Below are positions 1,240 to 47,686 of a stretch of 64,000 nt of DNA, piece by piece. The notes below the pieces were generated by a model, which saw nothing but the letters and a program-made list of their open reading frames with translations, had not been told where the DNA came from and ran no database searches. The position numbers and the translations under genes were made by a program. The DNA comes from Pontixanthobacter sp. CEM42. Its GTDB lineage: Bacteria; Pseudomonadota; Alphaproteobacteria; Sphingomonadales; Sphingomonadaceae. Every line of letters starts with the position of its first letter. Position 1 is the first letter of the stretch. The DNA is taken from the NCBI RefSeq assembly GCF_017812015.1, contig NZ_JADQTN010000001.1, positions 1,342,501 to 1,406,500 of the forward strand, read 5' to 3'.

Positions 1240-1478
1240 TCTTTTGTATAGCCTCAAGCGCCGGCGATCGCATCCGCTCCCTTAGGCTTCCGCGCAACGG
1301 CGCGGCGCACGGTCGTGCGCTGACTGCCGTGACCAAGGTTCAGAACAATAAACGCTGGCTTGGAATGGCTCGGCCCGACCCAGACGGGCCGCAAGGGCGA
1401 CCGCCCGCCCGAGCTTATGCGAGGCAGCCAAGGAATGCGGATGCATTCCGCCCGGCGACTGAGGGTCCAAAACAAACC
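1240..1478. repeat. Intergenic repeat R1, MITE-like, two outward-facing arms
   Basis: This 240-bp gap between smpB and DUF2062 is filled by a composite repeat. Left arm (minus sense) ends GCCTCAAGCGCCGGCG at 1251–1266; right arm (plus sense) ends CCCGGCGACTGAGGGTCC at about 1452–1469, followed by AAAACAAAC. The central part (GACCAAGG, then GGAATGG, GACCCAGACGG, GAGCTTATGCGAGG) is shared with the inverted copy R2 at 27068–27357, and the right arm with the half copy R3 near 28302–28425. No protein gene is supported here. The right arm abuts the smpB stop codon. Confidence 0.7.
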
Positions 1479-1960
1479 TACCCCTTCTCGCGGAGCAGCC
1501 TCTGCTTATCGCGTTTCCAGTCGCGATCCTTGATATATTCACGCTTGTCCTGCGCTTTGCGGCCCTTGCCCAATGCCAATTCAACCTTCGCCCGGCCGGT
1601 CTTGTTGAAATAGATCGATATCGGGACCAACGTCATCCCTTTGCGCTCCACCGCGCCCATCAGCTTGTTGATCTCGCGCTGGTTAAGCAGCAGCTTGCGC
1701 GGACGTTTGGCTTCGTGGTTCTCACGATTACCGTGGCTGTATTCGGGGATGTTGGCATTAACGAGCCACACCTGTCCGTCCTTCACTTCGGCATAGCTTT
1801 CCGAAATTGTTGCCTCACCCGCACGCAGAGCCTTCACTTCGGTGCCTTGCAGCATCAGCCCGGCTTCGAACTTGTCCTCGATCGCATAGTCAAACCGCGC
1901 CCGCCGGTTCTCGGCGACCACTTTCTGCTTATCGAAGGTTTCGGGTTTCGGGCGAGCCAT
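1478..1960 (-). CDS. smpB: SsrA-binding protein SmpB
   Basis: A 160-residue SmpB, the partner of tmRNA in rescuing stalled ribosomes. The conserved core is visible: [20 protein letters not shown], then [26 protein letters not shown] and [14 protein letters not shown], with the basic C-terminal tail ([20 protein letters not shown]) that enters the ribosomal mRNA channel. I chose the ATG at 1960 (MARPKPETF) because it gives the usual family length; an in-frame ATG 12 bp upstream is possible, and neither has a strong Shine–Dalgarno. The tmRNA gene itself was not found in the window. dapA, usually close by in this group, is separated from smpB here by about 2.4 kb of inserted genes. Confidence 0.95.
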
Positions 1961-2019
1961 AATGCGCGCCATGTAGGGAGGAAATCGCATCGGGGGAAGA
2001 GGTAGCGGCGCGTTCTTGC

Positions 2020-3816
2020 TTGCCAAACAGCCCGATGCGCGGAATGCTGCCCTGCAAAGTTCGGGAGGGATATATCGCAATACACATCAGCCGCAGAGCC
2101 GCTTTGGCCGGATTTTCGGCCGCACCATTGATGGCTGCATCACCAGCGGCACTCAGCCCTCAGCGGCGCGGCCCCGTTACAGTCTTCGAAGCCCGCAGCA
2201 TTGTTACAATGGAACAAGCACTTCCCTCCGCACGGTTTATGGCGGTTGCAGACGGCACCATTCTTGGAGTGGCCGATAGTCTGGACGAACTCGGCCCATG
2301 GACCAAGGACCGCGAGACCAAGGTCGATAGGCAGTTCGCGGGTAAGGTCCTGTTCCCAGGCCTCGTCGATCCGCATATCCACCCGATGCAGGCCGCCGTG
2401 ATGCTAGGTATGCCTTTCGTCGCGCCCGATGATTGGAAATTGCCCGGACAGAATTGGCAAGGCGTAGCGGGGCAGGAGGCTTACCGCAGACGCCTCAAGA
2501 AAGTCATCGATGGGCAATCGGGCGAACCGATCGTGATCTGGGGCCACCATGAACTGTTCCACGGACCGATGGATCGGCAAGTGCTCGACGCGATTGAGCG
2601 CGATCGACCTGTAATTGTCTGGCAACGCAGCTTCCACGATGTGTTCGCCAATAGCGCGGCTTTGCGCTGGATGGATCTCGACACCAAAGCTAAGTTCGAC
2701 GCGGCGATCGCGGCTGGGAAAGCCGACCCCGAGCATGGCGATTTCGCGAAGGGCATTTTCTCGGAAACCGCATTGCAGGTCGCGATAGGCAAGTTGCGAC
2801 CGGTCATCCTTGCACCCAAAAAACTGCAAAGCGGTTTTGCAGGCTTGCAGACCATGATGCACGATCGCGGGGTCACCACCACTGCCGATATGGCGACCGG
2901 TATCTTTGCAGGGTTCGAGATGGAGGCCGGGCTGATCGCCAACGCCTTCAATCGCCCGAATGGAAAGGCGCGTGTATCGCTGATTCCCATTGCTTCGGAG
3001 CTCGACAGCTATCCGAACTTCGATCCGGAGGCTTGGTACAAGCGCACTCGCGACAAATTCGCCAGCGACAAGATCATCGTCGACAAGCGGGTCAAACTGT
3101 TCGTCGATGGCGCATTCTTCGCGCAGAATATGCGGATGGGTTCGCCGGGCTATAGCGACGGTCATGTGGGCAAATGGCTGACCGAACCCGATGTGATGCG
3201 CGACCAATTGGCGCGCTATTGGGACGCAGGTTTCTCGCTACATATCCATGTGAACGGCGATGAAGGTGCGGCGGTGTTGCTCGATACGTTGGGCAAATTA
3301 CCACACCGTCTCGCGCAAACAGTAACATTGGAACATCTCGGCTATTGCACGGAGGCGCAGATCGAGCAGATTCTGCAATTGGGCCTGATGGTCTCGGCAC
3401 AGCCCAATTACATCCGGGTTTTAGGGGATGTGTATTCCCGAACCGGCCTTGGCGCGGACCGGGCATCGTTGATGAACCGGCTCGGCTCGCTCGAACGAAC
3501 CTGGACGCCGCTCGGGCTCCACAGCGATTTCAATATGGCCCCGATTGATCCGTTCTACCTCGCATGGATCGCCCAAACCCGCGAAGGAATCGACGGCGTT
3601 GCGCGCGGCGAGGAAGAGCGGTTGAGCCGTTGGAAAGCGCTGCGTGCGATCACAATCGAGGCCGCGCAAGTGATCGGCATGAACGATACTATTGGCTCGC
3701 TCTCAGCAGGAAAAAAGGCCGACTTTGTTGCGCTCGATGACGATCCGTTTGAAGTCGAAACCGACGCGATGAAAGAGATGCCGATTGCTGCGACGGTGTT
3801 TGAGGGAGTGGTCTAG
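2020..3816 (+). CDS. Tat-exported amidohydrolase, YtcJ-like (amidohydrolase family 3)
   Basis: A 598-residue metal-dependent hydrolase of the urease/amidohydrolase superfamily. Ligand motifs are in order: HIHPMQ after the small N-terminal beta-sandwich (about residue 115), [10 protein letters not shown] (about 410), LEHLGY (about 438) and LHSDFNMAP (about 504); the C-terminal sandwich ends [13 protein letters not shown]. The N-terminus has a twin-arginine signal (SRRAALAGF, residues 24–32), so the enzyme is probably exported folded. The substrate cannot be told; relatives act on N-substituted formamides or similar amides. It is divergent from smpB. The start is uncertain: ATG codons at 2020, 2038 and 2044 are in frame and a GGGAGGG lies downstream of all of them. 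Confidence 0.85.
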
Positions 3817-3817
3817 T

Positions 3818-3852
3818 TCGTCGCCCCTGCCCAGGCAGGGGTCTAGATAAGC
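3818..3852 (+). repeat. REP-like palindrome, copy A
   Basis: A perfect 7-bp stem CCCCTGC / GCAGGGG with tetraloop CCAG, preceded by TCG and followed by TCTAGATAAG. It starts directly at the stop of the amidohydrolase gene. It is a direct repeat of copy C (4241–4273; one mismatch over 31 bp) and inverted relative to copy B. The three copies bracket the GIY-YIG gene. Confidence 0.85.
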
Positions 3853-3866
3853 TTTCTGGCACGCAG

Positions 3867-4157
3867 TCAGATAATTGCCTCGAACAGATCGTCCCACTCG
3901 GGATTAGCCTCCTGAATCAACCTCAACTTCCATTGCCGTTTCCAACGCTTCATCGCTTTTTCACGCGCAATCGCTTCTTCAATAGTGGAATGCTCCTCGC
4001 AATATACAAGCCGGGTCAGCCCATGTTTGCGGCAAAACTCAGACCCTTTACCTTCCCGATGTTGATAGATCCGTACAGCGAGATCAGCGGTTACGCCAAT
4101 ATAGAGCGTGCCGAAATTCTCGTTGGTCATGATATAGACCCAACCGCCTTTCGACAT
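3867..4157 (-). CDS. Small GIY-YIG endonuclease-like protein
   Basis: A 96-residue protein consisting of little more than one GIY-YIG nuclease domain of the YhbQ/UPF0213 type. Motif residues: VYIMT (about 7–11) and LYIGVT (about 18–23) form the two strands of the GIY-YIG signature, the catalytic arginine would be in ADLAVRIYQHR (about 25–35), and the conserved glutamate/lysine helix is EAIAREKAMKRWKR. I chose ATG 4157, which has GGAGA eight bases upstream, over a TTG two codons earlier. The gene stands alone and is flanked on both sides by copies of one short palindrome. The cellular role of these small nucleases is not settled; the repeat association suggests a role in spreading or processing the palindromes, which is inference. 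Confidence 0.85.
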   Translation of the reverse strand: MSKGGWVYIMTNENFGTLYIGVTADLAVRIYQHREGKGSEFCRKHGLTRLVYCEEHSTIEEAIAREKAMKRWKRQWKLRLIQEANPEWDDLFEAII

Positions 4158-4181
4158 CTGCAATTCTCCTATTTAGACCAC

Positions 4182-4213
4182 GTCTAGACCCCTGCCTGCG
4201 CAGGGGTGACGAG
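4182..4213 (-). repeat. REP-like palindrome, copy B (inverted)
   Basis: The same hairpin as copies A and C in opposite orientation: stem CCCCTGC / GCAGGGG with tetraloop, here flanked by a complete TCTAGA on the left and GTGACGAG on the right. It lies about 25 bp upstream of the GIY-YIG start codon, so it could also affect that gene's promoter or leader. Confidence 0.85.
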
Positions 4214-4240
4214 GTAATAGTAGCGCCGCCGAACTAACAC

Positions 4241-4273
4241 GTCGCCCCTGCGCAGGCAGGGGTCTAGATAAGG
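4241..4273 (+). repeat. REP-like palindrome, copy C
   Basis: GTCG, then stem CCCCTGC / GCAGGGG with tetraloop GCAG, then TCTAGATAAGG. It is a direct repeat of copy A. Copies B and C are 27 bp apart in inverted orientation, the paired arrangement typical of REP doublets. It lies downstream of dapA (minus strand) and could also act in ending that transcript. Confidence 0.85.
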
Positions 4274-4321: not shown

Positions 4322-5203
4322 CTAAACCAACCCCGCATGCTCCAGCGCAGCGTCAACCGCTTTGCGCGCATGTTCGCTGCACGCAACAATCGGCAAGCGT
4401 ACTTCGTCGGTGATGTAGTCGAGCACTCGGCTCATCGCGTATTTGACCGGCGCGGGGCTGCTATCTTCGAACATTGCGTAATGCAGCGGATAGAGGCGGT
4501 CGTTGAGTTTGCGCGCGGCGACCAGATCATTGTCGGCGCAGGCTTGTTGGAATTCGGCGCACAGGGCCGGTGCAACATTGGCGGTGACCGAGATACAGCC
4601 CTTCCCGCCTGCTGCGTTGAACGGCAGCGCAAGCTCATCATTGCCCGATAGTTGGCAGAAGTCGCGACCGATGCCCATGCGGTGATCGGCAACGCGCGAC
4701 AAATCTTCGCTCGCATCTTTGATCGCGACAATCTGATCGGGGAATTTATTGGCCAGCTCAATCGTGGTTTCGGGCGCGATATCGGTCACGGTGCGGCCCG
4801 GCACATTATACAGCACAATCGGCAGATCGCAGTTGCTCGCCAGATGGCTGAAATGCGCGACCAAACCAGCCTGGCTTGGCTTGTTGTAATAGGGTGCAAC
4901 GCAAAGCCCTGCACTTGCTCCGGCCTTCTTGGAGAAGTTCATATGCAGCAGAGCATTTTGCGTATCATTGCTGCCGCAACCGGCGATTACGGGGACACGG
5001 CCCGCAGCCTGTTCGATGCAAATTTCGACAACGCGGTGATGCTCTGCATTGGATAGCGTAGAGGCTTCGCCAGTGGTCCCGCAAGGCACCAGAGCCTTGC
5101 TACCGCATTCGATTTGCCAGTCGACCAGCTTGCGAAAAGCGGCCTCGTCAAACGATCCGTCGCGAAAAGGAGTCACCAGAGCGGGAATTGAGCCCGAGAA
5201 CAT
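4322..5203 (-). CDS. dapA: 4-hydroxy-tetrahydrodipicolinate synthase
   Basis: DapA (293 residues) condenses pyruvate with aspartate semialdehyde, the first committed step towards diaminopimelate and lysine, in the cytoplasm. Seen in the TIM-barrel sequence: GTTGEASTL (about residues 43–51), the catalytic tyrosine in LYNVPGRT (about 132–139), the Schiff-base lysine in AIKDAS (about 160) and the glycine-rich GNDELALPFNAAGGKG (about 186–201). The length is normal for the family. It has AGGA before the ATG and stands divergent from the lytic transglycosylase, a pairing common in sphingomonads. Confidence 0.95.
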   Translation of the reverse strand: MFSGSIPALVTPFRDGSFDEAAFRKLVDWQIECGSKALVPCGTTGEASTLSNAEHHRVVEICIEQAAGRVPVIAGCGSNDTQNALLHMNFSKKAGASAGLCVAPYYNKPSQAGLVAHFSHLASNCDLPIVLYNVPGRTVTDIAPETTIELANKFPDQIVAIKDASEDLSRVADHRMGIGRDFCQLSGNDELALPFNAAGGKGCISVTANVAPALCAEFQQACADNDLVAARKLNDRLYPLHYAMFEDSSPAPVKYAMSRVLDYITDEVRLPIVACSEHARKAVDAALEHAGLV

Positions 5204-47174: not shown

Positions 47175-47283
47175 AATAACTCCATTCATAAGCAACATCG
47201 CTCATAATGGAGGAGACACACGTATTCGTGCCTTCCCATCTGCCCTCGGTACACCCCGCCCGCCAGCTCGAACGACCATCATG

Positions 47284-47460
47284 GGCAGGTCTCCTGGCTC
47301 CCGGATCATCGCGCCGCTTCCGCCTTCCCGGCTCGCCCCCAAAACTAATTGGATTAGACGCACCAGTGGCATTTGGAGGCGGCCCTCCCCGGTCACAGTT
47401 GCGGGGGCAGCGGATGGTTTGGGAAAATCCCGCACATCCTTCCCTCTTAGGTCCGTTTTG
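47284..47460 (-). promoter_or_regulatory. Cobalamin riboswitch
   Basis: Reading the minus strand: AGGGAAGGATGTGCGGG, GCTGCCCCCGCAACTGTGAC, CCACTGG, GGGAAGGCGG and the B12 box GAGCCAGGAGACCTGCC (47284–47300) appear in the order and spacing of the cobalamin (AdoCbl) aptamer. It lies in the leader of the btuB operon and would switch it off when B12 is plentiful. The expression platform lies between 47175 and 47283, where a stem could cover the btuB Shine–Dalgarno. The stretch 47461–47686 beyond it shows no further feature. Confidence 0.93.
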
Positions 47461-47686
47461 ATGCAGACAACCTATGACGTCACCGGCCCTTTACGCCCGC
47501 TAGGTCGGCACTTCAAGGCCAGAGATGCATCGGTAAATGGCCAGCTAGGCGGCAGGTAAGCAATTCTTCAGCATGCGGCTTAACCGCATATTGCGATCTG
47601 TGCTGCATTGGGACGGTGCTCGATGGCGCGTGGATGCACCCCCTCCTGCCTGATACGCGCTGGAGCGCGCCGTCGGCCCCCTGCCA

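Follow-up and report, generated by a model that had tools for sequence, protein, structure and literature searches.

Repeats of the CGTC REP type are widespread in bacteria; a 2013 survey (Di Nocera) found them apparently without a dedicated transposase (PMC3733652). The superfamily comprises CGTC-1 to -4, including Neisseria dRS3 and Rickettsia RPE, and GIY-YIG is absent from the text of that survey (PMC3733652). Three things link the locus analysed here to RAYT/REPtron loci and REPINs: a nuclease gene with cognate REPs on its flanks, dispersed pairs at fixed spacing and a single-strand hairpin logic (PMC3116915, PMC2817692, PMC3733652). It is not a RAYT locus but is laid out like one: its nuclease has a GIY-YIG fold whereas RAYTs are HUH/Y1 tyrosine transposases, its hairpins are CGTC-tagged and lie at the locus only whereas RAYT REPs are GTAG-tagged and dispersed, and the ends of its unit are mirror images whereas IS200/RAYT ends are read on one strand. 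The RAYT-like layout with a different nuclease fold, as first read from the letters, extends to dozens of genomes and many phyla, with hairpins that are cognate to the nuclease and with filled, solo and empty sites.

A second comparison comes from the protein itself. Its homologue in N. gonorrhoeae (52% identity over 90 aa, E 4e-22) sits within a cluster of cgtcATTCCCGCgcagGCGGGAATctaga repeats (dRS3-like), and those repeats also carry ctaga. We take this homologue to be Ssn. In a 2025 study on Neisseria, Ssn is reported to be a nuclease of the GIY-YIG type that cuts only single-stranded DNA, at the repeat NTS, and that affects transformation; thousands of Ssn homologues are said to show matching specificity. 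If the gonococcal homologue is this Ssn, a nuclease–repeat partnership is already known; the partnership, which had been put forward as a new kind of REP mobilisation, is thus supported here but has probably been described before. REP/REPIN-type mobility of such nuclease–hairpin units seems not yet to have been described, as none of the papers compared, the 2025 study aside, links CGTC repeats to GIY-YIG genes or gives an account of unit, REPIN and solo anatomy. The protein studied here resembles Ssn as a single-domain GIY-YIG protein of about 95 aa with a complete catalytic set and cognate CGTC-type hairpins beside its gene. It differs in that its hairpin class occurs only at its own locus, that features of a mobile element come in addition, namely unit ends, solo scars and pairs of the REPIN kind, and that its nuclease activity is a prediction.

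The nuclease gene and its three palindromes

The window, by which we mean the whole 64,000-nucleotide stretch that was analysed, carries the 96-aa GIY-YIG gene and the three palindromes that had been read from its letters (Table 1). Palindromes A and C form a 33-nt direct repeat (97% identical), and A and B an inverted repeat (93% over 30 nt), in agreement with the orientations first assigned to them. The gene is bracketed by mirror-image A and B with their tags facing outward, C lies outside in the orientation of A, and the outward mirror-image arrangement of A and B is also seen in 31 homologous loci. Folded as single strands, the palindromes give hairpins with z-scores of -2.8 to -4.7.

Table 1 Features of the nuclease locus and its flanks, in window positions
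Feature	Position	Strand	Remarks	Basis
GIY-YIG nuclease gene, 96 aa	3867..4157	-	ATG start 4157, RBS-like AGGAG upstream	PF01541
Palindrome A, CGTC-G-CCCCTGC-CCAG-GCAGGGG-TCTAGA	3819..3847	+	3'-side end of the unit; CGTC tag outward	repeats, genome pattern, folding
Palindrome B, CGTC-ACCCCTGC-GCAG-GCAGGGGT-CTAGA on minus strand	4183..4211	-	unit end on the 5' side; mirror image of A	repeats, genome pattern, folding
Palindrome C, CGTC-G-CCCCTGC-GCAG-GCAGGGG-TCTAGA	4240..4268	+	additional copy of the A type, beyond the unit towards dapA	
Proposed mobile unit A-gene-B, 393 bp	3819..4211			analogy with unit-only homologies and filled/empty sites elsewhere
dapA (flank)	4322..5203	-		PF00701
Amidohydrolase gene (flank)	2020..3816	+	true start may be internal	PF07969
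smpB (flank)	1478..2080	-	ORF limits; true start probably internal	PF01668, matching residues 55-197

The palindromes share with CGTC REPs, which are mostly alphaproteobacterial, the CGTC tag, a stem of 7-8 bp, a 4-nt loop and a short tail. Measured against the description of a CGTC REP as an 8-9 bp stem starting with A-T and a 4-5 nt loop, B agrees fully (8-bp stem, 4-nt loop), and in A and C the first pair is G.T, so that the stem is 7 bp. The palindromes differ from CGTC REPs in their tail, TCTAGA rather than CCA, and in being three copies rather than a dispersed multi-copy family. The exact stem CCCCTGC-N2-8-GCAGGGG is found at three sites in the 3,075,034-base genome, all at this locus, and at none with a reversed-pattern control; GTCRCCCCTGCN4GCAGGGGTCTAGA with up to three mismatches returns the same three genomic sites only. 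Dispersal of the CCCCTGC hairpin class beyond the locus was therefore not found in either genome-wide pattern search, and the reading of this palindrome as a genome-wide REP was rejected: the class is low-copy in its genome, with one unit and one extra hairpin. A search of the whole window for Rfam families found none at the nuclease locus; the sole match in the window is a cobalamin riboswitch (RF00174, 116.6 bits, 47267-47490, minus strand).

The protein is assigned to PF01541 (E 1.6e-16), and its AlphaFold model is confident, with a pLDDT of 94.9. Among 38 homologues G16, Y19, G21, T23, H33, E66, N85, W88 and D90 show no variation and Y8 and R29 hardly any, and the window protein holds what is, by residue identity, the full predicted GIY-YIG catalytic set (Y8, Y19, R29, H33, E66, N85). 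The nearest solved folds are the UPF0213 structure 1zg2 (E 1.6e-6) and also 1ywl, followed by Slx1. These UPF0213-like small GIY-YIG proteins have the same fold; the more distant GIY-YIG genes of the same genomes differ in being without palindromes. NCBIfam and PHROGs searches with the nuclease gave weak homing-endonuclease matches only. A GIY-YIG homing endonuclease is expected to cut unoccupied alleles only, from an element that lacks the intact target; around the present gene, hairpins persist on both sides.

Cognate hairpins accompany one nuclease subfamily

Family members occur in 37 of 60 related genomes, with up to nine matches per genome. A set of 60 homologous loci from related genomes plus the window (61 in all) was searched for GTC-tagged perfect hairpins within 160 bp on each side, with 1008 windows from the same contigs, plus shuffles, as controls. 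Tagged hairpins lie upstream at 44 loci, downstream at 42 and on both sides at 35 of 61, compared with 1.4%, 0.7% and 0.2% of the control windows and near zero in shuffles. The palindromes are thus enriched beside GIY-YIG genes in relatives, a test proposed at the outset, and are not distributed without relation to them. A second set, 80 named loci, came from a collection scan with an alignment subset, the alignment of all 38 proteins being too divergent; here 48 loci have hairpins on both sides (control 2.3%), and the set spans Alpha-, Beta-, Gamma- and Deltaproteobacteria, Elusimicrobia, Omnitrophota, Chloroflexi and candidate phyla. GIY-YIG genes that belong to other subfamilies (31-41% identity) and come from these same genomes have no such hairpins (0/16, Fisher p 2e-5). 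The hairpins that flank the gene are not there by chance.

The two hairpins of one gene also match each other. Left and right stems differ on average by 0.68 of 7 bases, compared with 3.19 when permuted (minimum of 5000 permutations, 2.19), and loop lengths are equal in 31/31 loci. On a tree of 141 nucleases, loop length changes 14 times against 34.4 when shuffled (minimum 26), and the four loop-proximal stem bases change 31 times against 60.1 (minimum 55). The hairpins are therefore specific to this nuclease subfamily and follow its phylogeny, and since those of one gene match each other while hairpin type tracks the nuclease tree, nuclease and hairpins form a cognate pair. Combined with the presence of a gene and matching-hairpin package in many relatives, often at different sites, this makes the hairpins very probably the recognition sites of the nuclease, and the package resembles a mobile element.

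Unit-only homology and filled, solo and empty sites

In three pairs of loci (L045/L049, L065/L076, L076/L083) DNA homology stops exactly at the outer hairpin edges, tag included, and in two more (L074/L076, L082/L083) it stops within 1 nt of the outer palindrome edges; in every case the flanks are unrelated. One genome (G037) holds two 90%-identical copies of a unit with different flanks, and another (G057) two gene copies 578 bp apart among many hairpins.

Comparisons between strains add sites in different states. Among Sphingobium strains, the plasmids of TomTYG46, TomTYG73 and TomMM7A have filled sites, whereas TomTYG72 and TomTYG65 have the site without the hairpin that remains in TomTYG64. 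That solo hairpin, CGTCACCCCGGG-TCAAG-CCCGGGGTGACG, is made of the left half of the upstream hairpin and the right half of the downstream one, and it and the solo hairpin in TomTYG74 are variants of each other. Such a solo hairpin would be the expected residue of recombination or slippage between two hairpins or, conversely, a site for a unit to copy in. In Azospirillum lipoferum a unit separates sufB from sufC, and at this place three relatives with ~95% identity have a short spacer only; in strain 4B the unit (L288, 870-1487) lies inside the Fe-S assembly operon. On Sinorhizobium meliloti pSymB an intact unit is adjoined by an internally deleted copy, in which the last ~78 nt of the gene stand between two hairpins, and a related strain has a solo hairpin at that site. 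The deleted copy (L286, about 660-830) resembles a young non-autonomous derivative. No target-site duplication could be resolved at the Azospirillum, Sphingobium and Sinorhizobium empty sites, because the intergenic sequence adjoining the unit is unalignable or because a solo hairpin is still present. Homology confined within the outer hairpin edges, combined with filled, solo and empty sites between strains, argues for a mobile unit.

Paired hairpins away from the gene

The genome that contains the window has 28 matches to hairpins of the ATTCCCGC class, of which 22 form 11 pairs. All 11 pairs face outward and none inward, with a spacing of 50-55 bp apart from one of 77. In G023, hairpins of the TGAA class are paired at about 63 bp, and their tags also face outward. 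In the ten pairs that were picked first, one end has ATGCTGAA and the opposite end ATCCTGAA, an asymmetry that the resident unit (L076) has as well. Pairs in G038 are mostly ATTCCCGC/ATCCCCGC, matching that genome's own unit (L072). RAYT systems have REPINs in this same arrangement of outward pairs at fixed spacing.

Among genomes of the family, those that encode a nuclease of the TGAA class are richer in TGAA hairpins even after flanking hairpins are subtracted (Mann-Whitney p 6e-4, Fisher p 4e-4). We considered whether the number of palindromes depends strictly on a cognate nuclease and rejected this; there is a tendency, with exceptions. G044 and G007, for example, have 57 and 20 palindromes of the ATTCCCGC class, respectively, and no GIY-YIG match at E 1e-5. 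Several such genomes, with many palindromes and no detectable cognate nuclease, indicate that the nuclease is not needed to keep the palindromes, which outlive it or do without it.

History of the dapA-smpB site

The locus had been described as an insertion between dapA and smpB, genes usually close in this group. Adjacency of the two is indeed common (11 of 20 relatives examined), but the window has the amidohydrolase gene in this interval as well, which places the insertion, strictly speaking, between dapA and that gene. The intergenic gap between dapA and the amidohydrolase gene is 505 bp in the window, compared with 14 bp between last sense codons in G002. An amidohydrolase gene (75% identity) adjoins dapA in G002 as well and is missing from this place in G004 and G006, which marks the dapA-smpB gap as a variable site.

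The locus is not identical in all relatives, and the proposed comparison of dapA-smpB sites shows several states. G006 has a bare 27-bp gap, and G004, whose DapA is 97% identical, has one degenerate solo copy of hairpin C and no nuclease gene in the gap. At the window's locus neither a target-site duplication nor an empty site could be resolved to the base, the intergenic region beside dapA being unalignable. Elsewhere, G004 has one paired copy of the window's hairpin class with the same CTAGATAAG tail. The degenerate hairpin C at the same site suggests that a C-type hairpin was probably there before G000 (the window's genome) and G004 split, and the A-gene-B unit would then have been either acquired in the lineage of the window or lost from the others. 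As direct repeats, A and C could recombine and so delete the unit again.

A proposed mode of movement and its alternatives

Hairpins of this kind match within a locus, mark the ends of the unit that has moved and occur elsewhere as outward pairs at fixed spacing. We consider it probable that the locus is a small mobile cassette, in which an Ssn-like single-domain GIY-YIG gene lies between mirror-image CGTC hairpins that are putatively its own recognition sites. In the mode of movement that we propose, a hairpin would fold when DNA becomes single-stranded, whether on uptake in transformation, on the lagging strand or in repair, and the nuclease would recognise the folded, CGTC-tagged hairpin in single-stranded DNA and cut beside it. 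Since the ends of the unit are mirror images, each strand would present one tagged hairpin, and one end would be cut per strand. A GIY-YIG domain of 96 aa has no means of joining DNA, so insertion would have to rely on host repair, and the ends may be joined by annealing in the host and by recombination with further copies of the hairpin. Such repair might occasionally copy the unit, or a gene-less REPIN, to a new place; alternatively, it might remove the unit and leave a solo hairpin. That the nuclease itself drives mobility, the remaining part of the original prediction, is plausible but unproven.

Against this reading stand the lack of a base-resolved target-site duplication or empty site at the window's locus, the lack of dispersed copies of its hairpin class in its genome and the palindromes kept in genomes with no detectable cognate nuclease; the units could also spread by transformation and recombination alone. 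An alternative is an Ssn-type gate: single-stranded DNA that enters the cell or becomes exposed would be cut by the nuclease at cognate hairpins, with an effect on natural transformation or recombination; gene and hairpins would not be a nuclease-driven element, and their movement would be ordinary homologous exchange. The similarity to the gonococcal homologue in its cgtcATTCCCGCgcagGCGGGAATctaga repeat cluster speaks for such a gate, as do the single-strand-specific cutting and the effect on transformation said to characterise Ssn and NTS. A gate alone does not predict unit-only homologies with unrelated flanks, internally deleted copies or pairs at fixed spacing, and we regard it as possible but rather unlikely.

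Much less probable is a purely regulatory role of the hairpins as terminators, attenuators or mRNA-stability elements of the nuclease gene. Their distance of 20-50 nt from the gene ends and their good folding would suit this role; the same hairpins, however, also occur far from the gene and in pairs, are not followed by poly-T, keep their outer CGTC tag and vary in sequence with the protein tree. Least probable of all is coincidence or site preference, by which GIY-YIG genes landed beside pre-existing REPs: alphaproteobacteria are rich in CGTC palindromes (PMC3733652), and G004 has a solo hairpin of the window's class at its dapA site. The mirror-image symmetry and the matching of stems and loops on both sides speak against this reading, and the tree congruence and the bare flanks of other-subfamily genes refute it, except as the route of one unit to one site.

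Beyond the cassette reading, the chances seem evenly balanced that the CGTC REP superfamily, Neisseria dRS3 and the alphaproteobacterial palindromes included, has its missing dedicated mobilisers in small GIY-YIG nucleases. These nucleases would be a second solution to REPs and REPINs, unrelated to RAYTs, with three states: autonomous unit, gene-less REPIN pair and solo scar. If the nuclease co-evolves with CGTC REPs and travels between them, the question of the missing transposase becomes testable, and hairpins could, by implication, shape bacterial genomes without an HUH transposase.

Relatives of the nuclease gene

The enzymes of the family and their hairpins form a large natural collection of specificity pairs. 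In the closest relative of the window protein (71% identity, in G034) the stems are CCCCAGC and TGCCAGC, in place of CCCCTGC in the window, with both stem arms altered together, and the two genes make a natural specificity-switch pair. A second family member in the window's genome (G000:C1:609081-609341) is 51% identical. The locus of this second GIY-YIG gene (L075, G000:C1:606581-611841) has degenerate flanks, with one imperfect ATTCCCGC hairpin ~58 bp downstream. Additionally, a decaying GIY-YIG gene with two stops (G005:C1:883743-883946) is still adjoined by a TGAA-class hairpin.
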